The notes beneath the pieces were generated by a model, which saw only the letters and a list, made by a program, of their open reading frames with translations, had not been told where the DNA came from and did not search any database. From positions 1 through 41,131 of the IMG/VR virus record IMGVR_UViG_3300000117_000063: a DNA stretch of 41,131 nucleotides; one strand, given 5' to 3'. Shown here one piece after another: positions 1 through 40,255 of the stretch (position 1 is the stretch's first letter; every line of letters begins with the position of its first letter). The position numbers and the translations under genes were made by a program. This DNA is from a virus.

Positions 1-3000
1 AGTATGTTTTTAGGACCAGAAAATAGAAAGAGTGCATATTCTCAAGATGGTTCGTATTGGGCTTCTACACTATTCGGGGCTATGGGTGGTGGTGGATTTA
101 CTATGCTTGGGGGTCTTTATAATAGAAAAACTAATAAAGCACGTCAACAAAGACAGATAGAAGAGATTGGTAAAAGACAAGAGTTTATAATAAATTCTCT
201 AAATAAAAGAAATGAAGCACAAGATAAGGGAGATGTTGAAGGTGTTAAGCTACAAAATAGAATGCTTGCAGTAAACTTAGGATTAAACGCATCTCAAGCT
301 GGAACTGTAGATTTACTATTAGAACAAATAAATGATGAAAATTTTGACGCAATTCTTTTAGATAATGGTATTACACAAGAACAGTTAAATACTACTAAAA
401 AAGAAATAGTTGAAACTATTAATCAGGCTGAAAAACGCTATAGAAATTATAGTAATAGAATATTTGGTAATGAGTATGGTGCTGGAGCAGCAAGAGCTGT
501 TACAGAACTAGAAATGGCTATGGATATGTATAGTGAATTAATGCAAGACATAGATAGTAGAATAACAGAATCTCAAGAAAACACTAAAATAGCTGAAGAA
601 AAGTCTCAAATTGGTGTAAACACTAAAAAACGTAGAGAAATACAAACTAATATTGCTAGTTTGAAGCAGACTTTAGAAAAAGTAGAAACTATAATTGAAA
701 ACTTAGAAAACGATAATGCTACTCCTAATATAACCAAAGAAGAAAAAGCTCAAAATGATTCTACTATTGCTAACTTTATGCAGTGGAAAGATAATTATAA
801 TGCAGAACTAAAATTACTAACTCAAGAAGGAGCAGATCTAGAAAAAAATTCTAAAGAAACTTATACTGAAGATAAATTTAAAGAAGAGCAAGAATATTTA
901 AATCAGACTAATAGAAATGATGTAGTACAATTAGCTAATCAAAAACAAATATATAAAGCAAATAGATTAGCAGCATGGAAACAATTAAATGAAATACTAA
1001 GTGGTAATTTTGAATTTACAGTAAAACAAAAGTCAGATAAAATAGAAGATGCATTATTAAGTGATAAAGAGCTTAAGAAAAAGCTTAAGATGGATAGATT
1101 AGATCGTGCAGATATTGAAAGCAGATGGAATTCTATTACAAAAAAGAACGCAAGAGAAACGCAGAATGATGCTAGTATACAGGATTTGATGGATTTACTA
1201 TCTAATCCGGCTACTACACAAGATCAAATAGATATATTTTTAGATGAGTATCAAGATAATAAAGAAGTAAGAGAAGCTTCAAGGCCTCTTATTGCAAGCT
1301 GGAAATCTAGAAAAGATCAGTTAGAATTACAAGCATCTATAGATAACTTAAGAAAAGCAAGTCAAGAAGTTAATGAAGCTGTTAAAGAAGGTAAAGAAAT
1401 AGAGAACTCTGAAAAAGTTATAAACGAAGTTATGCGTTTATTAAATGAAATTTGGGGTGTTGAGGGTATACATAAGGATAGTAAAGGAAATCCTTTATCA
1501 GAAAAACAACAAAGAGCTAAACAACGAGACTATAACTGGGGTAAAAATTTAGGTAAATTTATAGCAAGATATAAATATGGTATACCTGAATCTTTAAACT
1601 GGCAATGGGATAAGTTATTTGATAACTTTATTCCTTCAGTACAAGTAATGTGGAATGATCGTATAGGAGTAATTTATACAGAGAGTGGTACATTATTTTT
1701 TGAAGATGAGAATCAACATAAAACAGCCATAACAAAAGATGTTGACATACTGTTTAATTTAGATATGATTGTATTAAAAAATACAACAACAGTACCTATT
1801 ACTATAGAAGAAGATGGTAGAACTTTTAATATAAAAGGATCTTATTATAGTAACCTTAAAGAAAATCCAACTGATGCTATTAAGTATAATTCAGAGGGTA
1901 TGCCTACAGCTGTTACACTAACTAGATGGTTAGGACATGATATTACAATAACTACTCCAGGTATTGTATTAGACATAGCTAGAGTTATAGAAACTCTAGA
2001 AGCTGTAAAAATATCTAAGTTTGCATCTTTGAATAATGAAGAAAATTCCTTAGATTTGGGAGATACTATTCATTATGCAGTCTATGAAAAAACACCAAAA
2101 GGTTATGACCTAGTGGTGTATAACCAGGAGACAGGTAAAAAAGTTAAAGGCAGTACTAAAGAAGGTAAGTCTTTAAAGCATTTAGCTAATGCGATCTTAA
2201 GTAATAAGATACAAGAAGAAATTAATAAAATAAAAAAAGAATTTAATGAATCTACAACAACTTATAATGTTACTCCCACCGAAACTTCAAAAGAAGCTCT
2301 TAGCGGTACCCCCGGTCAAGCAGCCAGCGTTTCTCAAGAAGTTGAGGGAGTCGAAGACCCCGCAAAAAAGGAAGAAAAAATAACAGCTTCAGCACAATCT
2401 GCTAGCGCAATAGTTAATGTAGATCGTGCAAAAGTAACTGAGAAGGAGAAGAAAGAAATAATAGATGATATAAATAATGATGCTTTACAAGTAGATAAAG
2501 CAAACGCTGAAAAAATTATAGAAGAAGAGGCTAAAAAGAGAGAAGATAATTTAAAAGAAGAAACAAGCGAAAGTATAGACAATTTATTAAAAGACTCTAA
2601 ATCTAATCCTGAAAAAACTGTAGATCTTATAGACTCTTCAGTTAATCAACAAGAGCCTGGGAAGATAAAAGCACCTAGAAGTAAAGCAGTTACTAATCCT
2701 ACAGCTACTAATAAAAATAAAATAGAACTAGATAAGGCGTACCCTCAAGCATGGACTCCTCAATATATAGGTGTTAATCTAGGTACTAAAGCTAGCCCTT
2801 TATGGGTACAAGCCGTGGATATAAACGGTAATAGTGTTCCAATGTTTTCTAGATCTAATGGCGCTGCGTATAGAATTATACCCGAATCTTTTTTATCTCC
2901 AACACAGCTAGATAATCTTGATAAACAATCTCCTGGTTCAGGAACTGTAACATCTGTATGGTACAATGAGCCTAGAAAAAACATGAACAATCAAGTCATG

Positions 3001-6000
3001 AGAGAGGGTAATCGTATTATAGTAAACAAAGAAAAACAAATTAGATATACGGTTGTTAATCCTAAGACTAAAAAAAGAGAGAATGCTGTTATGGTTGTGT
3101 ATCCAGGGTCAACTAATCAAGCAGATATTGTTGATTTTGATGTAGCTAACAATCCAGATACAGGGGTTGGGACAGATGTTATATTAAGAGTAGAACCTAA
3201 TTGGCAATATTATAAAAGTAAAGATTCTAATGATGTAATAATTACTGTAAGATTAGCAGCGAATCCAGAAACTGTTGTTTCGATTATGAGAGGTGGTACA
3301 GCTTCTTTTAAACAAAACTTATTGCTAAGAAAAAATATAGCCGAAGCTTTAAAAGGTAATAGACCTATGGATATTAAAGCTAAAATTGCAGGTAAAACTG
3401 ATGGCTTTGTTACTAATCTAAAAAAACGTGGTATATCTCTTAAGCAATCTATAGAAGTGTTAGGGCCAGATCTTGTTTTAGGGTATGGTATTGATGGAAC
3501 TGTACGTGTACCTAACTCTACTGTATCTGTTGCTAATTCTCAATTTGTAGAAAACGGTACTATATATGCAGCAATAAAATCTGCTAGCGGAAGAGTAATA
3601 CCTATAAGATTAGAAACTTCTAATCTAAATAATACAGCTGCTAATAAAGTAGTAGAGATTATTTTAGATAATAAACTATCAGAAGAAGATAGGAGAGCAC
3701 AGGTAAATAAAATTGTACAAGTTTATGGTAAACTTGAAGAAGATACTCAGCTTGCTATGGATAATTATAGAATTAAATTTCCATATTCAGGAAAAATGAT
3801 TGGTCTACAAATCCATCCGGAAGGAAGCGATCAAATAAGTAACTTTGAAAAATTTATAACGGGAAAGCCTTACAAATATATTTTATATGACCAACAAGGA
3901 TTAATACAATCTTCAGGCCAAGTACAAAGAACATCGGGAGAAACTGTACAAAAAATATTAAGAGATAGTAAAGATTTTTCTTCACAGAATTTAGTTGATA
4001 ATAGAAATGTATTTATTGAGCATTTAAAAACAAAAAAATATAATGTACAGGGACATGAATTAAATGTTAATGAGCCTTATATGAGCCCAATAAATAATCT
4101 AGAGTATAAAAATTATTTAGAGTATTTATCGGATCCTAATATAAGAGTTGTAACTACAGATATTCCGGGAGGAACTTCTGCTAAATTCCATCATTCTATT
4201 ATATATACAGAAGTCGTAGATGATACTACTAAAATTAGTTTACCTTTTCAAAAAGCTGAGCTAACTAAACAAGAAGTAAAAGAATTTACCGAACCTCAAT
4301 TAGATGAAGATGTTATAAGCGCTATAGAGAATGAAGCTACTATGTCTATAGATGATTTAATTGAGAATAACAAGAAAAAACCTAAGACTAAAAATGATAT
4401 AGACAATATAGATGATATTGATTTACCGGGGATTAAGTTACGAGAAGCTGATCTTGTTAGTCCGCCTTCATATAATATGCTTACACAAGAAGAAGTAACA
4501 TGGTTTAAAGAAAAGTTTGGAAAAGAGGGTGTAAATGTATTAGAAAGAGTAAAATGGATAAGAGTATCAAAGGGTAGAAATGCTTGGGGTTTTTATAAAA
4601 ATGGTTTAGTTACATTAGCACGAGAAGGTAAAGAAGGTACAGCATACTGGGAAGCTTTTAGAAGAGTTTTTGATATACATTTATCTGAAGAAGAGAAAAC
4701 AATGGTATTGATGGAAGCTTCAATGACTTATGGAAAATCTATTAGTATTCTAGAGAATAAAAATTTATCTGTAGAGCAGTTAGAAACAGAGTTAGCAAAG
4801 AACTTTATGGAGTTTATGCTCAACGAAAAAGACCCTTCTTTTAAAGGCGCTATAAAAAGATTCTTTAAAGAATTATGGTATGCAATTAAAAACTTTGTAG
4901 GTTTAAATAGCAGTATAGAAAGATTATTTAGAAATATAAGAGATACAAAATATAAAAATTATACACAGGCAGAATTAGCTAAGCTATCTAATGTAGAAAA
5001 TGAACAGCTTAGACAAATGTATAATAAAGAAGGACAGCCTATGCCACAAGAATTTGTTGAAGAGGTTGTAGGTAATATAAACCATGATCTATATTCTGCA
5101 CTGCAAGTTAAAGCAAAAGAAGATAATGTATCTTTTGAATCTTACCTTAAAGACCAAAAACAACTAGATATATTCTATGATACTCTAAGAAAGCAATATA
5201 AAGCTATAGGTAAAAAGATATTAGAAACTCCAGGAATAAGTGAAAGGGTAAAAAGTATAGGAGAAAATTATCTACGAATAACTGATGACTCTTTATGGGG
5301 TATCAGAACAGATGCATTGCATAATCTAACCTCTCCAGGCTTTAAGAAGCTTGCTATACAAAACTTACAACCATTATTTGGTGTAAAGTATACTACATAT
5401 AGAGGACAAGAAATGACAGATGATCTTGATGCTAATGAGGTTAATGATATAGTACAAGAGACTGAACCTCAAGCACAAGAAAGAATACACGGTATAAATT
5501 ATTATTTTAGACCTGTTAAAGATACATTATCTAAAGATGTTAAAATAGGATTAAGTTTTATAGAATCTAAAGAAAAAGGAAAGTTGTTAGGTAAATATAG
5601 ATTTGTACCATTTGATGATGTATATAACTATCTTGCTTTAAACTTATCTAACGCTCCAGAAGGTAGGGTTTTAGAAAAACTAAAAACATTACAGCATGAA
5701 TTAGTACCTCAAGTGTTACAAAAATACACAGAAGCTAGTCCTGCATGGCAAAATAAATTTATTACACATTTTAATAAACAAAACATAGCATTTAAAACAT
5801 TAGTTATTGATAATAATGGAACTGTTAAAGTTATGTATACAAACCGTAATGGGCTAGAAAGACAGATCATTAATGATTGGATGAGTGGTAAGTCTACTTC
5901 ACCTATATTTAAAGAAGTTAACGGAGAAAATGATACAATAGATACTGAAATAGCTAAAGAGTTTCAAGCAATTATTGAAAAAGATTTAGTAGACATACAT

Positions 6001-9000
6001 AATAAATATAGAAATGTAAACAGTATATCAAAACAAACTGAAGGTAAAAAAGAATATATGGTTCCTATGATGAAAGTTTTAAAAAGCATAGGAATAATAC
6101 TACCTCAGAATATGAAGAGTGATTTATTTAGTGATAATTCTATTACAGTAGAAAGTCTTCATAAATATATGTATGGATCTAACTCTTTCCAATATGTATT
6201 TAAAAATTTAGCAAGGGGTATAAGTCCTTATATGGCAAATAATATGGAAATGGGAGCATTAGGAAAGCTTGCCAAGTTTGTTTCTCAATATAAAATAGAC
6301 TCTTACTTATCTTCTTTTATAGGAGGTAATAGAAAAAGTATATATTCTATTAATTTAAATACATATGATTCAGAAAAGACATTAGCTTTAAGATCTGAAG
6401 AAACATACAAACAAGCTATAGGTAAATACTTTAAAGATATATTCTATAAACCAAATTCAAATGTATCGCATGTTATATTAGACATGATATTAAAACATCC
6501 TGATGTAAGAAATAACTTTCAGTTAAGTACATTTGATGTTATAAAAGAAAAAGGAACTTTTGGTAGAGCTACTGCTTATGATCGAATGACTGAAAACTTA
6601 TCTGCTTTATCCCGATTCTCTATGTTTAATAACAGTGGTAATAGATTTGCAGAATTTAGTACAGGGACTAAGTCTGATAAAGGTCAGTTTAAGTTTTTAA
6701 CATTACCAAAAATACATCCAAAGAATAAAAGCTTTGGAATGTGGAAATCTACTAAACTAGGTGTAGAAGGATTTGTAGAAACTGCTGTTGAACTTATGCG
6801 CCCTTTAGCATTAGGTGAATATGCTCGTATATCAAAAATAGAACGACAGTTATTTGATATAGATATGGATTTAAAACACCAAGTAAAAAATCTACATTAT
6901 AGAAATGAGCCTGGGGATAAAGATGGTAATGGATTAAAGTTTATGTTCTTCAGAGATCTTAATAACTCTGAACTATTTAATGCAGAAACAAATAGATTAG
7001 AAGCTATATCTACTACTAACAACTCAGATCTAGAAGTGTATAACACTTTAAGTAGTAAGTTAGACGGCTACTTAAGAAGTTATGTTTCTAAACAAATAAG
7101 AAAAACAATAGATGCTTTTGTTGAAGCTAAAGCGATAGTTAAAGTTGGTAAAGAAATACACAATATTAATCTACCAATGCAGGCTATTTCAGGTAAAAGT
7201 GTTGGGAAAGATATTACACTAGCAATAGTTGAGTTTGCTGTAAACGATATAGTAATGAAACCTTATATAAATACTATATTTGGTCCAGACCTAGCATTCT
7301 ATAAAACAGATAGACAAGGTAATCCTATGATCGATGCTGGTAAAAGACAGTATCAGTCCGTAACTCCTAAAATGAATCTTACTTATAATGAAGAGCATGA
7401 TTACGGAGCTAAACCTAAATTTACACACGCAGTAGTACGGGATATAATAAAAAGAAGTCCAGAAACTGTAGAAAGGTTTGAAAAAATATTAACAAAAGCT
7501 GGGGTAAATCCTAAAGAAGCTAAAATAATAGCTTCATCTTATGAAGAAGTTCTAAAAACAGATGCACAAGGTTATACAACATTAGAATTCCATAAAAGAC
7601 AAATGGAGTCTCAAGGTAAGTGGTCTAAAGAACATGAAACTGCATATGAAACGTATTGGAAAAAAGGGCTAATGGGAGGAAAGGCTGAACAAGGACTTTT
7701 ATTAGACCCTTTAAAAACATATTTCTTTGGAGAAGTCTTAGAAAATGATGGACATAATAATGAAACTATAGTATTTAAACAAATTAAACACTCTACAATA
7801 CCATTAATGAGAGGTTATACCGAGATTTTTGCAGAGAATGATATAACTACATTAGATGACTTAAGACAACGTATGGAGGCTACAGGTAAGTACAAAGGTA
7901 TGCAACCTATAGATATGATTAATTTTGAAAGTGGAGTTAAGGTAGGTATATCAGGTATATCTAATTTACAAGATCTGGATAATGTAAATGTAGAAGTGTT
8001 AGATACTAAATACTTAGGTTCGCCGCAAATTATTACAACTAAAGCTAAAGACCCACTATTTGGATCGCAGTTTGCTAAATTATTACCTTCTAATATAGAA
8101 AATGATGCTAGCTATGTGTTACCTAATGGGGATAGATTATTAGGAGAAGAAGTTAAAACATTATATAATGATTTATGGTATGAAAAAATAGAGAGATCTT
8201 CTAATAAACTTTCACGTAAGATAGGTTATAAAGCTTTTATGGATATTTTAGCTGATAGAAATAATTTATCTAATAAAGAATTTGGTATTGCACAATTAAA
8301 ATTCTTAAAAAAAGTTAAGAATGAAGTATACCAAATGTTACAAGAAAGAGAATTACCAGATAATTACTTTTTAGCTTTAGATATAGAACAATTAATAGAT
8401 GATGTTGATGCTTATGGATACGTAACGCCTATGGCATTCCCTACTTTTTCTAAAAGATTTGAAAATATATTACTATCATTATTTAAGAATAATATATTGA
8501 AACAAAAAGCCAAAGGAATGTCTGCAGTACAAGTAGCGGATTTTGGATGGTCACTTACAAATGAGCTTCAGATAAAAGCTAATAGTAATGGAGGTGTGTA
8601 TGCAGAAGTTGCATTACCATATGATTTAGTACACAAATTAGGATTAAGAGTAGGAGATAATTTATCAGAAGTAGATCAAACTTTACTAGAATTAGTAGGA
8701 TATCGTATACCAACACAAGGTAAAAACTCCATGCTATCTTTAAAAGTAGTTAAGATTTTACCACAAAATATGGGATCTATTATACAATTACCTGCAGAAA
8801 TAACGACTATAATGGGGTCAGATTTTGATATAGATAAGATGTATATCATGTTTCCAGAACTAACAAAAGATAAGAAAAGAGAAGCTGCATTTAAAATAGG
8901 GCAGTATAGAACTAAAAAATCTTTTGAAGGATTATCAGATCAAGCTGTTAATCAAGCTTTATTTGATATATCTCATAGTATATTATCTTCTAAACATTCT

Positions 9001-12000
9001 GTAAAAGAAATACTAACACCTTTAGATTCTAATACATATAAAGAGGCTATAAAAGATTATAGAGAAGCAGGTATTACACAAGATATATCAGACTTCGACG
9101 TATTTACACCGGCTGCAGATATGTATTTAGAAAAAATAAATAAAGATGCTGCTATGTTGATTGGTTTATTTTCAATGAATTCTACATCTCATGCTTTAGC
9201 ACAGGATATGGAGGTTACATTAAAAGATGGTGCACAAGTTTATTTTAATTCTAAAAAAGGACAAGAGCATACAAGCTTAAGTAATATTTATGATTTTGAA
9301 GGTAACTATATTTCTGATCATATAAAAGATGACCAAAATGAATCTATTGATAATGCTAAAAATCAAAGAATAGGCCCCGCAGGTGTTACAGTATATAACC
9401 ACGGCGTAAAGATGTTATTAAATAGAGTTGGGGTTCCTGGGAGAGCTTCTCTAGATTTTATAAATCAGCCTATGATTAAACAGTATCAAAAAAGTAAAGC
9501 TACAAATACGGACAGTGTATCTGACATCAAGTTAGCAGAAAGAGTAGCGGAAGAATGGGGGGTTAAACAAGAATTTTTAGAAGCTAAAAAACTATTTGGT
9601 GAAGATAGATTCTTTACACCAAGCGCTGCATCATTAAAGAAATCCTTAAACCATACTAAAGGAGGAGAAAGGGCTAATAAAGTACAACAAGCTCAATTAT
9701 TAGCTGACTTTTTTAATTATTTAGATATTGCTAGGGATATTTCTAAGCTTAATATGCTTTTAAACCCTGAAGGTTTGAAGAATTTTAGTAGGTTAAGTTA
9801 TTTAGAAGCTTTTAAAAATGCTGAAGGCCATCTAAAAAGTACATCATCTTATATAAATATAGGTAAAATGCCAAAAAGAACAGAAGCGTTTATAAAATTT
9901 GGTATAGATGAGGCTATCAATGTTACTAGTTACTTTATACCTTTTAATAAAGAAGGGTTTTTAGAATTAAAGAGAAGTATAGCTAAATATACAGGACAAC
10001 AAGATGGAGTACTATCACAAGAGCTAATTGAAACTATAAATAGTTTGGCTTTATACTATGTATTTACTCAACCTGAATCACCTTTAGGTAATTTATTTTA
10101 TACAGAGGGGAAATCAGACATGTCTTTAGTTAAAAAGAGATTGTTTACATTATCAGAATCAACAGTATCTAGATTTTTAAATCTTAGATCTAGAAAAAAC
10201 ATGTTCAATGATAAGTTTTTTGGAATGTTATTTGCGCATAGAGAAAATACAGGTAAAAATAGATTTATAAAATTACTAGCTTTTAATAATGCTAGTAAGT
10301 TAGATGCATCTCAAAAATCTGCAATAACAGATAGATGGGAGCAATTACTAGATCCTAATGTAACTAAGGATGTAGAGGTAAGAAGGATGGCAGAAGCATT
10401 AGTTCTTTATTCTATTATTACTTCCGGTTTTATATCAACAGGGCCTAATACATTTGTAGATCTAATACCTAACTCATACTGGTCTAATAAATCAGAAACT
10501 AGAGATTCATTAAGTAATTTCTTTAGAAAAGAAGTACGAACAATGGAATATTCTAATTACTTTGACGACAATGCAGCTCGACAGATAATCAGAAATGCTT
10601 ATAAAGACCCTGGATTACTACTAACAGTAGATAAAACAGCTTTAGTTCATAATAATATGGTAAAAGACTTAGGGTTAAGTAAAAACCATTATTTTATTCA
10701 CCAAGAAGCTTCTAGTGATATCTTACTTAAAGATAGCCCTGGAACAAAAGCATATGTAGAATATTTTAAAACATATGAAGGTAAATGGAGATTATTTCAG
10801 TTACATAGTGTACGAGAAGCAGGAGCTATTTACCAAGAAATACAACCATTAGGAGAACGTTATAAATTTGTTGAGATGACTAGTAAGGATGCGCTAATTG
10901 AAAGTATACATCCAATGAATACTACTAAACATAAACAAAATATATCACAACAACTAGAGAATTTACCTCCTAATAGTACTGAAGCTACAGAATCTATAGA
11001 CGACTTATTAGGCATGCCACAACTTGCAGCTGAAAAGGTACTAGAAACAAAAATACAAGATCTAGAAAATAGATTATTGACATGGTTAAAAAAAGAATTT
11101 AATATTAATCAAAAAACTTATAATGTATTAAAAACTAAGACAGGAAAAGATGCTTTAGGTGTAGCAGATATAATGCATAAAGTAATACATCTATCAAACA
11201 GAAGAGATAGATATACTGTACCAGAAGAAACAGCTCACTTTTTTATAGAAATGTTAAAAGATAAGGCTATTGTTAAGAGATTAATGGATTTAGCCGCTAA
11301 AACTAATTTACACGGTGAAGTATTAAGAGATTATGCAGAAGTCTATAACAATCCGGAAGAGTTTAAAAAAGAAACTGCAGGTAAAATACTAGGAAAATAC
11401 ATTGTTTCTGAATATTATCAAGGAAAAGGCTTTAGTATTGGAACAGAAAATCAATTTGTTAAAGAATATAGAGGATTTTTAGGACTATTACAGAAGTTAT
11501 GGGACAGAATTAGATCTATTTTTGTAGGAGAGTCTGCAAATACTGAGTTAAATAGACATATTCGAGATGTTTTTGGCCAAAAAGCTAGACAAGTTTTAAC
11601 TGGAAGCTCATTAGGGTTAGATGTTAATTTATTACGAACTAATACTATACAAAAATACTATAGTATAGGGGGTATAATGGATGGTGCAGGAAAATTAGGA
11701 GAGGGTGTATTAAATAAAGTAGGAAAAAGTTTAAGTGTTTTTGATTTTACTTCTAAACAACTAAAAGAATTAGGAGATAAAGGTAAAGCACTGTTACAAA
11801 GAAGAGCATCATGGAATCAATCTGACTATATAACAGAGTTATTAGCAGATAGTAATAGAATAACTGAACCAACAGGAGAAAATAATTTCTATACTAAAGA
11901 TGGAGTACAGTTAACAAGAGTAACTGGTGTACAGGATTACTTTACCGATGCATTTGCGGAAGAAGAGATGGCATCTAAAGTAGCTAAAGCAAATAGAAAT

Positions 12001-15000
12001 AAAGGAGATGTATTTAATTCTGCAGAAAGAGTATTAAATCTATGGAGTTTCTTACAAGAGGGTGGCACAGAAATCCATAAAGTAATGGAAGCTATTATAA
12101 ACGGTAAAAATAATGAACAAATTATGGATTCTGTTAATATAGATCCAAAAAGTAAAAAAGCCATTAAATCTTCTTTATCATTATTAAGAACTTGGGTTCA
12201 AGATAAAATGAATAAAGGTAGTAAGCTATATGCAGAAGTTAAAATAGCTGATATGAATAATCTGTTAGCAGGTACAATAGATGTTATAGAGCAGACAAGC
12301 AGTGGTAGAATATATTTACACGACTTTAAAAGTAAAGTACTTGGAAAGCTGGTGGAGTTAGAAAAAAGATTACCTAATTTTAAATACGCTTTATCAGGTG
12401 TACCTAATACTATATTAAATCAATATAGGTTACAACTTTCGCTATATAAATATATACTAGAGAAAAAAGGTATAAGGGTAGACGGTATAAGAGTACAACC
12501 ATTAGAGGTAGGTGTTAATATAACCCCAGAAACAGGTAATATAAATTATACATCTATTTCATTTCCTAGCGCAACATCACCGGTATTAAATAAATTAAAC
12601 AATTTAAAACCTATTGATAATACTATAGTATCGAATGTTCTTAAAAAACTTAATCCTGAATCTACAGGAGTAGCAGAAGAGTTAAAAGAAAAAGATGCTA
12701 CAGTTAGAGTATTGCAACAAGCTAAAAATGTTATAAGGAAAAAAATAGATAAATATAAAAAGTCTGGAAATCCTAATTATCTAACAGCTATGCAAGATCT
12801 ATCTAAGCAACTAGAAGAAGTAAGCGAAAAAGAAGGTATTGTATTATTTGTAAAAAGAGCACTACAAGAAATAAATGATGCGCATAAAAGATTATTACAA
12901 CTACAAAAAGATGATGCAGTTACAGCTAGAAATCTAGCAGAAATAAGAAACTATGTATCAGCATATGAAATATTAGATGAGATGACATTGTTAGCCCCAT
13001 CATTAGGTAAAACAGGTTATGAAAATTTAATTAATACATATGTAGCACCCGCAGTACTGAAAAGACAGCAGGTAGAAGAGTTATATAAAGCATTAGGTAG
13101 GCCTATTATTGCAGACTTTTTAACGAAGTATAGCACTAAACCAGGGATGACTAAAGTAAAGATGGAAGCAGAGCTTATTAAAGCTAGTCGAGATATTAAT
13201 TATTTAGCTAGATGGTTAAATGCATTAGCAGACTCTTCGATGACAGAGTTAGCAATGATTGATAAGCATGTTGCTATAAAAAGAAATATAGTCCAGGAAG
13301 CTAAATACAATCTAGAGTATGGCCAAGGAAAAGAAAAAGGTATGCTAGACATGTTAAAAACATTCGAAGAGCATAGAGCCCAGGAGGGTGCTAGTGTTAC
13401 TAATTATGTTGAGCTCTTTGAACCGATACTAGAAATGCATGAAGGAAAACCTACAGGACATATAGTAGGGCCACAATCATATGCATTTAGACAAAAGAAA
13501 TATGATTTTATACAAGCAAAGAAAGCAGCCGGAGAAGCTATTACAAGCAGACTTTGGAATGAATTCTTTGAGAATAATGAGTTTGTAGAGGATCCAAAGT
13601 ATGCAGCATTAATGAAGTTACCTGAATCACATCCTACAAGAGCTTTTTACGATTACTTTATTGAGCAGTATAAATATGCACAGAGTATATTACCATCTTT
13701 TGCTAGAAGAGGTCTTATGTTACCTGGGTTAAGAAAGACTCCACAAGAGAAGTTTATGGAGACTGCAGGTTTTGTTGGATTAAAAGGAGGATGGAACGCA
13801 ATAAAAGAAGCAGCGCTACAAAAGTTTACTATACTAGAAGATGAAACAGAATATAAAGAAAATGTAGACGAAAAAGGAGATGCTATGCATTATGTACCTA
13901 TACATTATAGTGAAAAGATCGGGACAGAAGAAGGTATGTTAAATCCTGAAGATGTTTCTTATGATCTATCAAGCGCATTATCTATGTATTATACTATGGC
14001 TGTAAACAATCAGCAAATGAATGAAATAATAGCAGAGTTAGAACTAACAAAAGAATTACTAAGAACAAGAAAAGTTAGTAAACTTAAAGCTGGTATGCCT
14101 GTTATTGATAATGTTACAGATGCACAGGTTACAACAGAAGGTGTTCAATCTTTAGCTTATAATAGATTAGTCGATTATTTAAATATGGTTGTTTACGGAG
14201 AAAGAAAGAAGAAAAGTTCAGATGTAATGACTATAGCAGGAAAGAAAGTTACCATGGATAAGATAATGGATGGTTTCTTGTCGTACAATAGTTTAAGAGT
14301 ATTGGCGTTAAATCCACATGCTGGTTATGTAAACGTAGCATTTGGTAATTTAATGAATACTATAGAATCTTTTGCGGGACAATATTTTGGTAAAAAGAAT
14401 TTTATTAAAGCTAAAACATTCTATTGGGGTAATTTATCAGGTATATTAAAAGATACTGTAGGTAGAGTTCCTACTTCTAAAGTAGGCCTTATGAATGAGT
14501 ATTACAATGTATTACAACATTTTGATGAGTTTGGTAATAGAATTAAACATAAATCATTAGCTATGCGTGGTATGCATACAGGTGCATTCTTCTTTATGAT
14601 GACAATGGGGGAACATATGTTACAGAGTCAGTTATTTATGTCGATGGCTTTAGAAAAAACATTTAAACTAGCTAATGGTAAAACAATAAATCTGTGGGAT
14701 GCTCATAAAGTAGTTAATGACAAATTAATACTTAATGAAGAAGTTGCTGAGCAGTTTACTGAAACTGATAGAGCAATATTTAAAGAAAGAGTACAAGGAG
14801 TCTATCAGAGATTACATGGTATATATAACCAAAAAGATCGAAATGCTATACAACAATATGCAGCAGGTAGGTGGGTAATGCAATTACGTAAGTGGATGCC
14901 ATCAGGATTTGCAAGAAGATTTGAAGGTATGGAAAAACTATGGTATGATAAAAAGTCTGAATTTAAAGGCCCTGAATGGAATGAGAGATTAAAATCATAT

Positions 15001-15537
15001 GTAGAGGGTAATTATATTACTACATTACGTTTTATAAATCAACTAAAGTTTGATATAGCTAAGCTTAAAATGTATACTATAAAAGAAAAGTGGAATGAGT
15101 TAGATACATGGCAAAAACAAAATGTAAAACGTACTATAGGTGAAGTAGCAGCCTTCTTTACTTTATTAGCGCTTTCAGGTCTTATAAGAAGCGGAGATGA
15201 AGATGAAAAGGGATATGTATATTACCAATCTTTATACACAGTGCATAGAATGAAACAAGAGCTATTATTCTTCTCCTGGTTACCAGAAACGTTTAATGTA
15301 TTAAAGTCTCCTGCAGCTAGTATAACATCTTTAGAAGTATTAGTAAATCTAGTAGGTCAGTTACTATCTGATACAGGATCTATTATGATGGGACAGGATA
15401 TAGAAAGATATAAAAGAAAGACCGGTATGTGGGATAAAGGGGATCCTAAAATATATTCAAAGATATATAAAACGTTCCCATTAACACAGATAGGCGCACA
15501 AGCAAAAGATAAGTTAAGCTGGTTCCACCTAAATTAA
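1..15537 (+). CDS. Giant crAss-like virion RNA polymerase polyprotein (probably 5'-partial)
   Basis: Single frame of at least 5,177 residues (numbered from the ATG at 4). The frame is open at base 1 and no leader is visible, so the true start may lie upstream. Residues 20-37 are a Gly-rich hydrophobic segment, followed by a long charged, coiled-coil-like region to about 500. Residues 2900-2950 carry RIPTQG, then a conserved stretch ending in D2940-F-D2942-I-D2944, matching the double-psi beta-barrel and metal-binding loop of RNA polymerase beta' as in the virion RNA polymerase of Cellulophaga phage phi14:2. Two zincin-like modules have lost their metal ligands (W1549-E-A-F-R1553 and E3741-E-T-A-H3745). 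Residues about 4020-4150 form a complete RecB/Cas4-like PD-(D/E)XK nuclease (H4025, E4078, D4093, D4107-F-K4109, Q4144/Y4148). A hydrophobic helix lies near 5046-5062. Known for the family: the polymerase is packaged, enters the cell and transcribes early genes. The nuclease role is inference. Confidence 0.9.
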   Translation, partial: SMFLGPENRKSAYSQDGSYWASTLFGAMGGGGFTMLGGLYNRKTNKARQQRQIEEIGKRQEFIINSLNKRNEAQDKGDVEGVKLQNRMLAVNLGLNASQAGTVDLLLEQINDENFDAILLDNGITQEQLNTTKKEIVETINQAEKRYRNYSNRIFGNEYGAGAARAVTELEMAMDMYSELMQDIDSRITESQENTKIAEEKSQIGVNTKKRREIQTNIASLKQTLEKVETIIENLENDNATPNITKEEKAQNDSTIANFMQWKDNYNAELKLLTQEGADLEKNSKETYTEDKFKEEQEYLNQTNRNDVVQLANQKQIYKANRLAAWKQLNEILSGNFEFTVKQKSDKIEDALLSDKELKKKLKMDRLDRADIESRWNSITKKNARETQNDASIQDLMDLLSNPATTQDQIDIFLDEYQDNKEVREASRPLIASWKSRKDQLELQASIDNLRKASQEVNEAVKEGKEIENSEKVINEVMRLLNEIWGVEGIHKDSKGNPLSEKQQRAKQRDYNWGKNLGKFIARYKYGIPESLNWQWDKLFDNFIPSVQVMWNDRIGVIYTESGTLFFEDENQHKTAITKDVDILFNLDMIVLKNTTTVPITIEEDGRTFNIKGSYYSNLKENPTDAIKYNSEGMPTAVTLTRWLGHDITITTPGIVLDIARVIETLEAVKISKFASLNNEENSLDLGDTIHYAVYEKTPKGYDLVVYNQETGKKVKGSTKEGKSLKHLANAILSNKIQEEINKIKKEFNESTTTYNVTPTETSKEALSGTPGQAASVSQEVEGVEDPAKKEEKITASAQSASAIVNVDRAKVTEKEKKEIIDDINNDALQVDKANAEKIIEEEAKKREDNLKEETSESIDNLLKDSKSNPEKTVDLIDSSVNQQEPGKIKAPRSKAVTNPTATNKNKIELDKAYPQAWTPQYIGVNLGTKASPLWVQAVDINGNSVPMFSRSNGAAYRIIPESFLSPTQLDNLDKQSPGSGTVTSVWYNEPRKNMNNQVMREGNRIIVNKEKQIRYTVVNPKTKKRENAVMVVYPGSTNQADIVDFDVANNPDTGVGTDVILRVEPNWQYYKSKDSNDVIITVRLAANPETVVSIMRGGTASFKQNLLLRKNIAEALKGNRPMDIKAKIAGKTDGFVTNLKKRGISLKQSIEVLGPDLVLGYGIDGTVRVPNSTVSVANSQFVENGTIYAAIKSASGRVIPIRLETSNLNNTAANKVVEIILDNKLSEEDRRAQVNKIVQVYGKLEEDTQLAMDNYRIKFPYSGKMIGLQIHPEGSDQISNFEKFITGKPYKYILYDQQGLIQSSGQVQRTSGETVQKILRDSKDFSSQNLVDNRNVFIEHLKTKKYNVQGHELNVNEPYMSPINNLEYKNYLEYLSDPNIRVVTTDIPGGTSAKFHHSIIYTEVVDDTTKISLPFQKAELTKQEVKEFTEPQLDEDVISAIENEATMSIDDLIENNKKKPKTKNDIDNIDDIDLPGIKLREADLVSPPSYNMLTQEEVTWFKEKFGKEGVNVLERVKWIRVSKGRNAWGFYKNGLVTLAREGKEGTAYWEAFRRVFDIHLSEEEKTMVLMEASMTYGKSISILENKNLSVEQLETELAKNFMEFMLNEKDPSFKGAIKRFFKELWYAIKNFVGLNSSIERLFRNIRDTKYKNYTQAELAKLSNVENEQLRQMYNKEGQPMPQEFVEEVVGNINHDLYSALQVKAKEDNVSFESYLKDQKQLDIFYDTLRKQYKAIGKKILETPGISERVKSIGENYLRITDDSLWGIRTDALHNLTSPGFKKLAIQNLQPLFGVKYTTYRGQEMTDDLDANEVNDIVQETEPQAQERIHGINYYFRPVKDTLSKDVKIGLSFIESKEKGKLLGKYRFVPFDDVYNYLALNLSNAPEGRVLEKLKTLQHELVPQVLQKYTEASPAWQNKFITHFNKQNIAFKTLVIDNNGTVKVMYTNRNGLERQIINDWMSGKSTSPIFKEVNGENDTIDTEIAKEFQAIIEKDLVDIHNKYRNVNSISKQTEGKKEYMVPMMKVLKSIGIILPQNMKSDLFSDNSITVESLHKYMYGSNSFQYVFKNLARGISPYMANNMEMGALGKLAKFVSQYKIDSYLSSFIGGNRKSIYSINLNTYDSEKTLALRSEETYKQAIGKYFKDIFYKPNSNVSHVILDMILKHPDVRNNFQLSTFDVIKEKGTFGRATAYDRMTENLSALSRFSMFNNSGNRFAEFSTGTKSDKGQFKFLTLPKIHPKNKSFGMWKSTKLGVEGFVETAVELMRPLALGEYARISKIERQLFDIDMDLKHQVKNLHYRNEPGDKDGNGLKFMFFRDLNNSELFNAETNRLEAISTTNNSDLEVYNTLSSKLDGYLRSYVSKQIRKTIDAFVEAKAIVKVGKEIHNINLPMQAISGKSVGKDITLAIVEFAVNDIVMKPYINTIFGPDLAFYKTDRQGNPMIDAGKRQYQSVTPKMNLTYNEEHDYGAKPKFTHAVVRDIIKRSPETVERFEKILTKAGVNPKEAKIIASSYEEVLKTDAQGYTTLEFHKRQMESQGKWSKEHETAYETYWKKGLMGGKAEQGLLLDPLKTYFFGEVLENDGHNNETIVFKQIKHSTIPLMRGYTEIFAENDITTLDDLRQRMEATGKYKGMQPIDMINFESGVKVGISGISNLQDLDNVNVEVLDTKYLGSPQIITTKAKDPLFGSQFAKLLPSNIENDASYVLPNGDRLLGEEVKTLYNDLWYEKIERSSNKLSRKIGYKAFMDILADRNNLSNKEFGIAQLKFLKKVKNEVYQMLQERELPDNYFLALDIEQLIDDVDAYGYVTPMAFPTFSKRFENILLSLFKNNILKQKAKGMSAVQVADFGWSLTNELQIKANSNGGVYAEVALPYDLVHKLGLRVGDNLSEVDQTLLELVGYRIPTQGKNSMLSLKVVKILPQNMGSIIQLPAEITTIMGSDFDIDKMYIMFPELTKDKKREAAFKIGQYRTKKSFEGLSDQAVNQALFDISHSILSSKHSVKEILTPLDSNTYKEAIKDYREAGITQDISDFDVFTPAADMYLEKINKDAAMLIGLFSMNSTSHALAQDMEVTLKDGAQVYFNSKKGQEHTSLSNIYDFEGNYISDHIKDDQNESIDNAKNQRIGPAGVTVYNHGVKMLLNRVGVPGRASLDFINQPMIKQYQKSKATNTDSVSDIKLAERVAEEWGVKQEFLEAKKLFGEDRFFTPSAASLKKSLNHTKGGERANKVQQAQLLADFFNYLDIARDISKLNMLLNPEGLKNFSRLSYLEAFKNAEGHLKSTSSYINIGKMPKRTEAFIKFGIDEAINVTSYFIPFNKEGFLELKRSIAKYTGQQDGVLSQELIETINSLALYYVFTQPESPLGNLFYTEGKSDMSLVKKRLFTLSESTVSRFLNLRSRKNMFNDKFFGMLFAHRENTGKNRFIKLLAFNNASKLDASQKSAITDRWEQLLDPNVTKDVEVRRMAEALVLYSIITSGFISTGPNTFVDLIPNSYWSNKSETRDSLSNFFRKEVRTMEYSNYFDDNAARQIIRNAYKDPGLLLTVDKTALVHNNMVKDLGLSKNHYFIHQEASSDILLKDSPGTKAYVEYFKTYEGKWRLFQLHSVREAGAIYQEIQPLGERYKFVEMTSKDALIESIHPMNTTKHKQNISQQLENLPPNSTEATESIDDLLGMPQLAAEKVLETKIQDLENRLLTWLKKEFNINQKTYNVLKTKTGKDALGVADIMHKVIHLSNRRDRYTVPEETAHFFIEMLKDKAIVKRLMDLAAKTNLHGEVLRDYAEVYNNPEEFKKETAGKILGKYIVSEYYQGKGFSIGTENQFVKEYRGFLGLLQKLWDRIRSIFVGESANTELNRHIRDVFGQKARQVLTGSSLGLDVNLLRTNTIQKYYSIGGIMDGAGKLGEGVLNKVGKSLSVFDFTSKQLKELGDKGKALLQRRASWNQSDYITELLADSNRITEPTGENNFYTKDGVQLTRVTGVQDYFTDAFAEEEMASKVAKANRNKGDVFNSAERVLNLWSFLQEGGTEIHKVMEAIINGKNNEQIMDSVNIDPKSKKAIKSSLSLLRTWVQDKMNKGSKLYAEVKIADMNNLLAGTIDVIEQTSSGRIYLHDFKSKVLGKLVELEKRLPNFKYALSGVPNTILNQYRLQLSLYKYILEKKGIRVDGIRVQPLEVGVNITPETGNINYTSISFPSATSPVLNKLNNLKPIDNTIVSNVLKKLNPESTGVAEELKEKDATVRVLQQAKNVIRKKIDKYKKSGNPNYLTAMQDLSKQLEEVSEKEGIVLFVKRALQEINDAHKRLLQLQKDDAVTARNLAEIRNYVSAYEILDEMTLLAPSLGKTGYENLINTYVAPAVLKRQQVEELYKALGRPIIADFLTKYSTKPGMTKVKMEAELIKASRDINYLARWLNALADSSMTELAMIDKHVAIKRNIVQEAKYNLEYGQGKEKGMLDMLKTFEEHRAQEGASVTNYVELFEPILEMHEGKPTGHIVGPQSYAFRQKKYDFIQAKKAAGEAITSRLWNEFFENNEFVEDPKYAALMKLPESHPTRAFYDYFIEQYKYAQSILPSFARRGLMLPGLRKTPQEKFMETAGFVGLKGGWNAIKEAALQKFTILEDETEYKENVDEKGDAMHYVPIHYSEKIGTEEGMLNPEDVSYDLSSALSMYYTMAVNNQQMNEIIAELELTKELLRTRKVSKLKAGMPVIDNVTDAQVTTEGVQSLAYNRLVDYLNMVVYGERKKKSSDVMTIAGKKVTMDKIMDGFLSYNSLRVLALNPHAGYVNVAFGNLMNTIESFAGQYFGKKNFIKAKTFYWGNLSGILKDTVGRVPTSKVGLMNEYYNVLQHFDEFGNRIKHKSLAMRGMHTGAFFFMMTMGEHMLQSQLFMSMALEKTFKLANGKTINLWDAHKVVNDKLILNEEVAEQFTETDRAIFKERVQGVYQRLHGIYNQKDRNAIQQYAAGRWVMQLRKWMPSGFARRFEGMEKLWYDKKSEFKGPEWNERLKSYVEGNYITTLRFINQLKFDIAKLKMYTIKEKWNELDTWQKQNVKRTIGEVAAFFTLLALSGLIRSGDEDEKGYVYYQSLYTVHRMKQELLFFSWLPETFNVLKSPAASITSLEVLVNLVGQLLSDTGSIMMGQDIERYKRKTGMWDKGDPKIYSKIYKTFPLTQIGAQAKDKLSWFHLN

Positions 15538-25770: not shown

Positions 25771-26781
25771 CTAGAATATATAACGAATTTTATTCCAAGG
25801 AATAACTCTGTTATGTAGTCTAATAAACTGGTCTATAAACTGTCTTTTTAAGCCTGATCTATATCTAAGATTTGTACCACCATATTGAGAAGTTTTAAAT
25901 TCTTGCTCATTAGGTTTCCATAAATCTTCTTCTGCTTTAGGATTTTGTACAAGATTATAATTGTGTCTGTTTTCATTGTGTGTTAAAAATATACACTCTG
26001 CTAAAACTTCACTTTTATAATCTACATAATCATTCATCATATTAAATAGTTCTTCATAGTCATCTAACCATTTATCATAAACTATAATAGGAGAATAATT
26101 AACATGCACATCATATCCAGCATCAATAAAAGCATTAATTGCTTTTATACGATCTATAATTTTGGAGGTATTAGGCTCATGTATATCAGCTTTACACTGT
26201 GGCATGAGACTAAATCTAATCCTAATCTTACCTTTAGGGTCAAATGATATTAGATCTGGGTTTACATATTTAGTTGCAAAACTACCCATTGCTGTATCAT
26301 GATCTCTAAAGAACTTAAATATCTTACGCCACTCGTGATGTTTAGCATGAAGAGCAAAATCTTCATTGCAGCTAATATCATAAGTAATATAAGTTTTATG
26401 TGTCTGATTAGGTTTGGCTATTTCCATTTGAGCAAACCAAGCATGTTTGTTTATTTCTGATAATATTTCTTCTGTATTTGTAGCAATAGATAAACCATTA
26501 GGTTTATTACGCTTCATATAACAATAAGAACAATTATATAAACAACCATGTCCAAAACTAGGAGATATATAATCTGTAGATCTACCAGATAGTCTAATCT
26601 TAAAAGATTTTCTTTTAACTTTCTGTACATTTACTACAGGCTTAATTTTTTTATAACTTGTAATCAACTGACTACCAACAGTATAGACCTTCTTCTCAAG
26701 AAGTCTGCCTTTATACTCATAGTAATCTTCTATAGCTTCGTATGGTATATTATTTATACCTTCATCCCATATTTTAGCCAT
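25771..26781 (-). CDS. Radical SAM protein, spore photoproduct lyase-like
   Basis: A 336-residue protein with the radical SAM cluster motif C80-LYN-C84-SY-C87 in FGHGCLYNCSYCYMKR. The setting (SPSFGHGC before it, later IRIRFSLMPQ, DAGYDVHVNYSPII and the ending WNKIRYIF) fits the spore photoproduct lyase branch, enzymes that repair thymine photodimers using a 4Fe-4S cluster and S-adenosylmethionine. The protein is about the length of the bacillus enzyme. Location inside the replication operon, 7 bases before the next gene and overlapping the previous one by 8, fits DNA repair or base chemistry during replication. Whether it repairs UV lesions or makes a modified base cannot be told here. Confidence 0.8.
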   Translation of the reverse strand: MAKIWDEGINNIPYEAIEDYYEYKGRLLEKKVYTVGSQLITSYKKIKPVVNVQKVKRKSFKIRLSGRSTDYISPSFGHGCLYNCSYCYMKRNKPNGLSIATNTEEILSEINKHAWFAQMEIAKPNQTHKTYITYDISCNEDFALHAKHHEWRKIFKFFRDHDTAMGSFATKYVNPDLISFDPKGKIRIRFSLMPQCKADIHEPNTSKIIDRIKAINAFIDAGYDVHVNYSPIIVYDKWLDDYEELFNMMNDYVDYKSEVLAECIFLTHNENRHNYNLVQNPKAEEDLWKPNEQEFKTSQYGGTNLRYRSGLKRQFIDQFIRLHNRVIPWNKIRYIF

Positions 26782-34417: not shown

Positions 34418-34792
34418 ATGGATGCATTACATGAAAAAAGAAAAAAGAGGGCTGAAGCTTGGAGTAAGTTAACTGATAAGCAAAAAAAAGAACATGATAA
34501 AGATTTTTATCAGTGTACCCATGCAAAGTTTAGAGCTTTATCCTATGTAGATAGAAAAGAAGCTTTAGAAATATTTACTAATAGTAAATTTAAAGCAGAG
34601 TATACCCATCTACTAAAAGATGGTACAAACAGATGGTTATGGACAGTTAGAGATAAAGATTATAACAAAGTAGGATTCATATTAGGTACTCCTACTATAG
34701 ATCAGAAACAAGGTAATTATAATCATAACGATCCATTTAAATCAGATTTTGATTATATGGAAATTGATAATCATAACAGTATAGCGGGTTAG
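34418..34792 (+). CDS. Small charged protein ending inside a tRNA gene
   Basis: A 124-residue protein with a strongly charged N-terminus (HEKRKKRAEAWSKL) and a compact beta-type second half (TNRWLWTVRDKDYNKVGFIL, GTPTIDQ). No family recognised. Its last codons and TAG lie inside the 5' end of the tRNA at 34783, a 10-base overlap, so a ribosome finishing the gene and the tRNA share sequence. The start at 34418 is chosen because the ATG at 34411 is out of frame and stops after seven codons. Confidence 0.7.
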   Translation: MDALHEKRKKRAEAWSKLTDKQKKEHDKDFYQCTHAKFRALSYVDRKEALEIFTNSKFKAEYTHLLKDGTNRWLWTVRDKDYNKVGFILGTPTIDQKQGNYNHNDPFKSDFDYMEIDNHNSIAG

Positions 34793-34854
34793 AGTAGTGG
34801 TTACTCACGGGTTTCATTAGCCCGTCTAGGTTGGTTCGATTCCAACACCCGCAA
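34783..34854 (+). tRNA. tRNA with anticodon CAT (Met or Ile2 type)
   Basis: Full cloverleaf of 72 nt: acceptor AGCGGGT/ACCCGCA (six pairs plus an A-A mismatch at 1-72), D arm GAGT/ACTC with GG in the loop, anticodon arm CGGGT, loop TTCATTA, GCCCG, variable loop TCTAG, and a perfect T arm GTTGG, TTCGATT, CCAAC. Anticodon CAT at 34-36. Position 37 is T, unusual, and the 1-72 mismatch recalls initiator tRNAs. No encoded CCA. Could read AUG, or AUA if the C is modified to lysidine. Confidence 0.8.
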
Positions 34855-34885
34855 CTAAATAGTAATAATAAATAAAAAGATAATA

Positions 34886-39547: not shown

Positions 39548-40255
39548 ATGAAAAGAATTATATATATATTACTTGTGTTTATTGGCTCGTTCGTCAATGC
39601 ACAAGGTTACGATTTCCAAGAGTTATGTTTAAACTGTGCAGAGCAACAGGGTTTTTATTGTGGTGATGACCCAGCTAACTGGACTCAATATGCTCCATTA
39701 GGGTGTGTACAAACTTCTTGGTTAAATGATGGATGGGAAGATTGTGTAGATGCAGGGGATGAGAATGGGGCAGAACCAACTCTACCTATAAACTGTGAAC
39801 CACCTGTAGAACCATGTGATACAGTATATGTAGATGTACCAGTATTTATAACAGATACATTATACGTAGATAACTTTATTTTTGATACTATTATACAAAC
39901 AGAGTATATAACACAGATAGTTATAGATACAGTAGAAGTAGAAGTATTTGTTCCTGAATACATATATGTTACAGATACACTATGGATGGAAGGAGCTTTA
40001 GATACTTTATTTGTAGATGTTATTGAATATGTAGAAGTTACTGTATTTGATACAATAATAGAAACAGAGTATGTAGAATTTTTTGTAGTTGAATATATAG
40101 ACTGCGATACAAATGAACCATGCGGTAATTCACAAATTATAGAAATAATGAAAGGATCTTTTGGATCTGATATTATGTATAATTTAAATGGACAAGTTAT
40201 AAGAAAACCAGAAGGAATATATATCCAAAATGGCGAGGTAAAATACAAATTCTAA
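39548..40255 (+). CDS. Secreted protein with LDLa-like Cys motif, stalk, and T9SS-like C-terminal signal
   Basis: A 235-residue protein. Signal peptide MKRIIYILLVFIGSFVNAQ. Residues 27-90 hold seven Cys (27, 30, 38, 53, 66, 83, 90); the stretch CVQTSWLNDGWEDCVDAGDE has the D-G-x-x-D-C-x-D-x-x-D-E pattern of calcium-binding LDL-receptor class A repeats. Residues about 91-190 form a Val/Asp/Thr-rich stalk with repeated DTLYVD and DTII-x-TEY units. The end, YNLNGQVIRKPEGIYI followed by QNGEVKYKF, matches the type A T9SS C-terminal sorting domain of Bacteroidota (Gly-x-x-y-x-x-Gly-Ile-Tyr-Ile-x-Asn-Gly). So it should be exported and perhaps attached to the host surface. Known: T9SS is confined to Bacteroidota; phage-coded substrates are not something I know as described. 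Confidence 0.75.
   Translation: MKRIIYILLVFIGSFVNAQGYDFQELCLNCAEQQGFYCGDDPANWTQYAPLGCVQTSWLNDGWEDCVDAGDENGAEPTLPINCEPPVEPCDTVYVDVPVFITDTLYVDNFIFDTIIQTEYITQIVIDTVEVEVFVPEYIYVTDTLWMEGALDTLFVDVIEYVEVTVFDTIIETEYVEFFVVEYIDCDTNEPCGNSQIIEIMKGSFGSDIMYNLNGQVIRKPEGIYIQNGEVKYKF

Follow-up and report, generated by a model that had tools for sequence, protein, structure and literature searches.

Phage T5 makes Llp, a lipoprotein that faces the periplasm and blocks the receptor. Among the phages of Bacteroidota, Cryophage encodes proteins that are predicted to use the type IX secretion system (T9SS) of the host, and superinfection exclusion was suggested for them (Bellas et al. 2020, PMC7468147). Further, contigs of crAss-like cluster 2, reported in 2019, carry phage ORFs with BACON or T9SS sorting domains near their head genes (PMC6949934). 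These two reports precede the present one, and the statement in the original prediction for our locus that no phage T9SS cargo had been described thus does not stand.

The signals that direct proteins to the T9SS differ in size. Type B signals comprise 150-235 aa, and their cargo is found with a cognate barrel of the PorP/SprF kind (PMC12618676). Short signals of 40-55 aa, bearing motifs B, D and E, have been described in Prevotella intermedia, and their cleavage was shown experimentally in five cases. They are predicted to form a three-stranded sheet and were modelled to bind PorV as the long signals do; P. intermedia is the only species reported to have both short and long signals (PMC11969387). 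For the secretion of GFP in P. gingivalis, the final 22 residues of a T9SS signal, which hold motifs D and E, were enough (Shoji 2011, as cited in PMC5445135).

In the present study, we analysed a viral record of 41,131 nucleotides (IMGVR_UViG_3300000117_000063; its whole length is called the window below). The evidence of its sequence suggests that one of its products, P0001, is probably a T9SS cargo that the phage encodes and that carries a signal of the short type; it would be secreted by the host. The elements on which the original prediction was built, that is, a signal peptide, an LDLa-like motif, a stalk with DTLYVD and DTIIETEY, and an NGEVK end, are all present in the ORF (Table 1).

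Table 1. Coordinates of P0001, its parts and its neighbours in the window.
Feature	Position	Strand	Remarks
Outer-membrane beta-barrel gene P0002, 354 aa	38480..39544	+	predicted barrel, AlphaFold pLDDT 73.8
Cargo gene P0001, 235 aa, putative phage-encoded T9SS cargo	39548..40255	+	85 distinct viral homologues; purifying selection
Sec signal peptide, predicted cleavage before Gln19 ("Q rule")	39548..39601	+	MKR, hydrophobic core, then NA before the Q
N-terminal Cys-rich LDLa-like domain	39605..39811	+	6 invariant Cys; GFYCGDDPANWTQYSPNGCV
LDLa-type calcium box, DGWEDCVDAGDE	39704..39766	+	weak PF00057 matches among family members
Variable DTxYVD/DTIIETEY stalk	39815..40105	+	similar stalk in cellular L110, L112, L115, L116
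Putative short T9SS-type C-terminal sorting module	40118..40252	+	44-46 aa in every complete homologue
Cleavage-like site N-S/Q-I	40127..40138	+	cf. P. intermedia consensus PT/GI; site itself assumed
Motif B, YNLNG	40178..40192	+	Tyr 83/85, Gly 85/85
Motif D, GIYI	40214..40225	+	[G/S/D]xYI 85/85
Motif E, NGEVKYKF	40229..40252	+	basic residue 85/85
Downstream fibre-like gene	40257..41129	+	truncated by the contig end; weak PHROG matches (head-fibre/Hoc-like families)

The ORF is no chance reading frame, for P0001 belongs to a large family of viral proteins. Searches of IMG/VR recovered 28 loci with P0001 itself, 118 with the barrel (80 retained) and 227 with the N-domain (80 retained). The first 108 of these loci contain 104 ORFs homologous to P0001, 85 of them distinct. 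Nearly all of the 85 share one plan: a signal peptide of the Bacteroidota type, then the LDLa-like N-domain, a stalk that varies in length and, last, a tail of fixed size. Among 50,697 records of named phages, tblastn found no match for P0001 or P0002.

The signal peptide of P0001 is MKRIIYILLVFIGSFVNA, followed by Q. This residue, Q19, is nearly invariant among the homologues, and a simple pattern match finds a signal peptide that obeys the Bacteroidota "Q rule" (Gln after the cleavage site; PMC10367356) in 83 of the 84 homologues possessing an N-terminus. The N-domain that follows spans about 70 residues, and the family alignment displays its six invariant cysteines and a conserved D..DC..D..DE box; AlphaFold models most of the domain at a pLDDT of 86-91. 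Its likeness to LDLa, which the original prediction had noticed as a calcium motif, is best described as real but divergent. The PF00057 (LDLa) model matches 54 of 65 family members weakly (best E 4e-4), with P0001 itself, at E 0.07, below the cut-off, and the Foldseek matches to the N-domain model are mostly LDLa modules, all with E > 0.5 and none significant.

The stalk ranges from 5 to 176 residues across the family, and the tail is held to 44-46 aa (sd 0.5). In the AlphaFold model of P0001, the stalk has no predicted structure (pLDDT 24-37). The tail, which closes P0001 with MYNLNGQVIRKPEGIYIQNGEVKYKF, is modelled with moderate confidence (pLDDT 67-80) as a short helix and two strands (223-227 and 230-234) that form a C-terminal beta hairpin. 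Codon analysis shows purifying selection in every part of the protein, with dN/dS of 0.13 in the N-domain, 0.11 in the stalk and 0.22 in the tail.

Is the tail a T9SS signal? Curated models do not say so: the sorting-domain check proposed with the original prediction came out negative, as PF18962 and TIGR04183 match none of the 65 members even at E<=10, and no model in Pfam, NCBIfam or PHROG matches the tail. The canonical long signal is also of a different build, with about 70-100 aa in a seven-stranded Ig-like sandwich, as against the 44-46 aa, helix and two strands of the phage tail. When the tail was compared with canonical long signals in hhalign, the score was 17.9 and the maximum for shuffled sequences 22.5. 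Because this profile-profile score is not significant, kinship of the tail to the long signals rests on the pattern of motifs and not on homology statistics. The failure of the curated models is not decisive, however, because cellular secreted proteins that bear the phage-type tail are likewise unmatched by PF18962 and TIGR04183, and because the tail fits the short signal of P. intermedia. The original prediction is partly supported: T9SS sorting has good support, although by way of the short signal and not through the check that was proposed.

Judged against the published description of the P. intermedia signals, the phage tails share their length, the order B-D-E, the conserved Tyr and Gly of motif B, the GxYI motif (here [G/S/D]xYI), a basic motif E and an Ile in the cleavage motif. 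The distance from the cleavage-like site to the C-terminus is 40-42 aa in 85/85 homologues, the site being an assumed one that mostly reads [S/T]-x-[I/M/L]. Motif D has the exact form GxY in 67/85 and Ile after the Tyr in 85/85, a constant gap of 7 residues separates the Gly of motif B from motif D in all members, and motif E holds two or more basic residues in 82/85. There are also differences. The residue after motif B is mostly Gln here and Arg/Lys in P. intermedia, and the predicted folds are a short helix with a C-terminal beta hairpin here and a three-stranded sheet there.

The same tail is present in cellular genomes. A tail profile (A3) run on bacterial and archaeal genomes found two cellular loci, both in Flavobacteriales; the genes around them are ordinary chromosomal ones (mnmG-like and gamma-glutamyltransferase-like, as judged by eye), with T9SS cargo nearby. 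Among 398 Flavobacteriales genomes, the phage-tail profile matched 13 at E<=1e-3. In a 12-genome marine Flavobacteriales family, the tail occurs in G001, G002, G007 and G010, where it ends secreted proteins whose fronts are unrelated: GCxDPxACNY repeats in L110, an LRR-like front in L116 and others in L112 and L115. A stalk similar to that of the phage accompanies the tail in each of these loci. Beside the short-tail protein of L110 lies another with the same repeat, and this one ends in a canonical PF18962 domain (E 1.3e-9). The matches in the nine genomes outside this close family are weak (E 7e-5 to 1e-3), and every one of them lies at the C-terminus of a protein that looks secreted; in eight of the nine, the tail is of the Y[DN]xxG...YI type, such as I-x-E ... 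Y-D-L-L-G-R ... G-x-Y-I-x-N-G-K-K.

When an HMM was built from nine cellular tails, it recovered 92 of the 104 ORFs of the phage family at E<=1e-3, with an E of 3.2e-5 for P0001. This reciprocal test is partly circular, since the phage profile had served to find the nine tails. Nothing outside the family fell below E 0.2 when this HMM was run on 9,191 phage ORFs. In 19 phage records, there is one strong tail match per record, and one of the 19 also has a second, weak match (E 0.009).

Orthologues of one of the weak-match proteins, found through the body of the protein, bear similar tails, and other orthologues, in G002, G007, G009 and G010, end in a short tail of another kind (LLGR ... NGxVxKKYIIK). 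The end of this protein is therefore exchangeable. This second tail (LLGRxxx...NGxVxKKYIIK, or IYDDGTVDKTYLLK) was observed on secreted proteins of marine Flavobacteriales at L166, L167, L168, L169 and L109:469-1656, and orthologues exchange it with the Y-D-L-x-G-R type. It is likely to be another short T9SS signal that Pfam misses.

These distributions bear on another reading, in which P0001 is an exported surface or periplasmic protein whose tail caps the structure or anchors it to the phage barrel, host and phage having come to share a stalk-plus-cap module by horizontal transfer. The stalk and tail do travel as a unit in the putative host family, the barrel gene is obligately adjacent to the cargo gene in the phages, and the curated T9SS models go unmatched. 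However, weak tail matches are also found on proteins without a stalk, no similar barrel stands beside the host tail proteins within the flanks that were read, and the spacing and residues of the motifs fit a short T9SS signal. We thus consider a cap or anchor quite improbable and favor a sorting function for the tail.

Both halves of the phage protein lead to the same small lineage. Among the 398 Flavobacteriales genomes, the N-domain occurs in cellular proteins of G002, G005, G006 and G011 only, and these four and the four strong-tail genomes all lie within the 12-genome family. Because the two halves are common to this one lineage, we infer, from shared modules only, that it is the phage host or a close relative of it. 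One N-domain protein of this family ends in a weak PF18962 match (E 0.0014, below the cut-off).

The T9SS machinery is available in these bacteria. SprA was found in 12/12 genomes of the family and in 12/13 tail-bearing genomes, including the four with strong tails; because it is common in the order (319/398 genomes), its co-occurrence with the tail is expected and not diagnostic. PF18962 is present in 15/15 genomes tested, with 20-42 matches per genome in the 12-genome family. PorV is present in 12/12 genomes tested, among them all seven tested from the family, and PorP/SprF in 14/14.

The neighbouring gene product, P0002, was proposed to be an outer membrane barrel, and the AlphaFold model and PDB matches agree with this assignment. 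The PDB matches are to generic barrels only (FapF/COG4313, at low TM), and no PorV-like structure was found among the top ones. A viral structure in BFVD, A0A516LKJ4, resembles P0002 (E 4.7e-25, 29% identity). Of 107 loci, 103 have the barrel gene upstream of the cargo gene, in most cases abutting it, and the 4 exceptions are at contig ends. In the 80 N-domain loci examined (80 retained of 227), the tail is present in 79 and the barrel in 79, the two misses being truncations. The phage barrel is thus always co-inherited with the cargo, and it probably acts with the cargo protein at the outer membrane. In some phages (e.g. L054, L071, L002), a gap of 0.1-1 kb separates the two genes, which suggests an insertion point. 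As a candidate PorP/SprF or PorV protein, P0002 was rejected on sequence grounds: the hhalign probabilities were 3.9% and 9.7%, respectively, with scores only slightly above those of shuffled sequences.

This pairing raises the possibility that the cargo has in P0002 a shuttle or anchor of its own, in the way that PorP/SprF barrels serve type B proteins; such a role would be a compatible extension of the explanation we prefer. The near-constant presence of both genes, with exceptions at contig ends, is in keeping with such a role, as is the fact that type B cargo genes commonly adjoin their shuttle genes (PMC12618676). We nevertheless regard it as rather unlikely, given that P0002 lacks similarity to PorP/SprF or PorV, that the top PDB matches include nothing PorV-like, that the short signal was modelled to bind PorV, and that shuttle genes are usually downstream of their cargo, whereas the barrel gene here is upstream. 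A complete surface-display cassette, in which a short-signal T9SS cargo is joined to a dedicated barrel shuttle or anchor unrelated to PorV or PorP/SprF, is in our estimation unlikely.

On its other side, the cargo gene adjoins a gene that had been called a tail fibre gene, a label that its weak PHROG matches do not establish. The position of P0001 beside this fibre-like gene, among structural-looking genes, would suit a virion component, either a fibre or a decoration, that is made within the cell. Against such a role stands the signal peptide that essentially all homologues possess; further, the invariant cysteines suit an oxidising compartment, and secreted host proteins bear the same tail. 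A virion role is therefore, in our view, highly improbable, and export of P0001 is the better reading.

Several other features of the phages deserve mention. The DNA polymerase of the 41-kb record has its nearest counterparts, at about 30% identity, in crAss-like phages from Bacteroides and from gut samples. The left end of the window (4-15537) is taken up by one ORF, about 5,178 aa long, an ORF at 25771-26781 (-) has a radical-SAM-like GCLYNCSYCYMKRNK motif and is possibly spore-photoproduct-lyase-like, and a phage-encoded tRNA-Met (CAT) is found at 34783-34855 (+). In three other loci (L015:9739-10143, L047:10582-10965, L033:11035-11415), the cargo gene is followed downstream by one whose product is exported and thioredoxin-like (VVEFWASWN); the CXXC cysteines are apparently missing from this product. 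A large phage ORF at L047:1-2736 has a CTDASAANYD-type repeat that resembles the GCxDPxACNY repeats in secreted proteins of the putative host family.

Taken as a whole, the explanation that P0001 is exported by Sec and then, through its short tail, by the T9SS for surface display of its LDLa-like head is one that we consider likely. Sec would take the cargo to the periplasm. There, the tail would be recognised by the host translocon SprA plus a shuttle, most likely the host PorV, and the protein would cross the outer membrane; the tail would then probably be cleaved by a PorU-type sortase. The PorV and PorU steps are taken from other species. Finally, the infected cell would bear the LDLa-like head on its surface. 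What it might do there is the least certain step; receptor masking, changed adhesion and particle capture were the roles suggested in the original prediction. Because the protein is length-variable and surface-directed, and because its gene is beside a fibre-like gene, we favor, speculatively, receptor shielding or superinfection exclusion, followed by adhesion of infected cells.

From these results, it appears that the ocean phages of one large clade re-dress the surface of their host by way of the host's own T9SS, using a minimal signal that current models miss. Marine Flavobacteriales would be the second bacterial setting for short T9SS signals, and the tail of 40-42 residues offers many natural variants for mapping T9SS recognition. 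Further, a link emerges between the phages and one small family of marine Flavobacteriales, and the locus offers a candidate phage cargo with an obligate barrel partner that is as yet unexplained. The open-access literature yielded no earlier report of a short T9SS signal, whether from phages or from Flavobacteriales. We take as new the short signal in both, the way it is conserved throughout a clade of phages, and the obligate pairing with a barrel gene that has no detectable relation to PorV or SprF.

The locus is related to each of the known systems in part. Like Llp of T5, P0001 would be a surface protein made by a phage, and its gene lies near genes for receptor binding; unlike Llp, it is proposed to be exported by the T9SS. 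In Cryophage, annotated type A sorting domains are carried by an endoglucanase, a GH39 protein and a PA14 protein, and these vary between variants, whereas here one conserved family has a short signal and an obligate barrel partner. The crAss-like cluster 2 contigs have phage ORFs with T9SS domains, as here, but they are from gut phages and have BACON and annotated sorting domains. With the type B systems, our locus shares a gene for a secreted protein beside a gene for an outer-membrane barrel; it differs from them in its short and unrelated tail, in a barrel not detectably of the PorP/SprF kind, and in the reversed order of the genes. Finally, the short signals of P. intermedia are found on the cellular proteins of an oral bacterium, and those proposed here are found on the proteins of marine phages.
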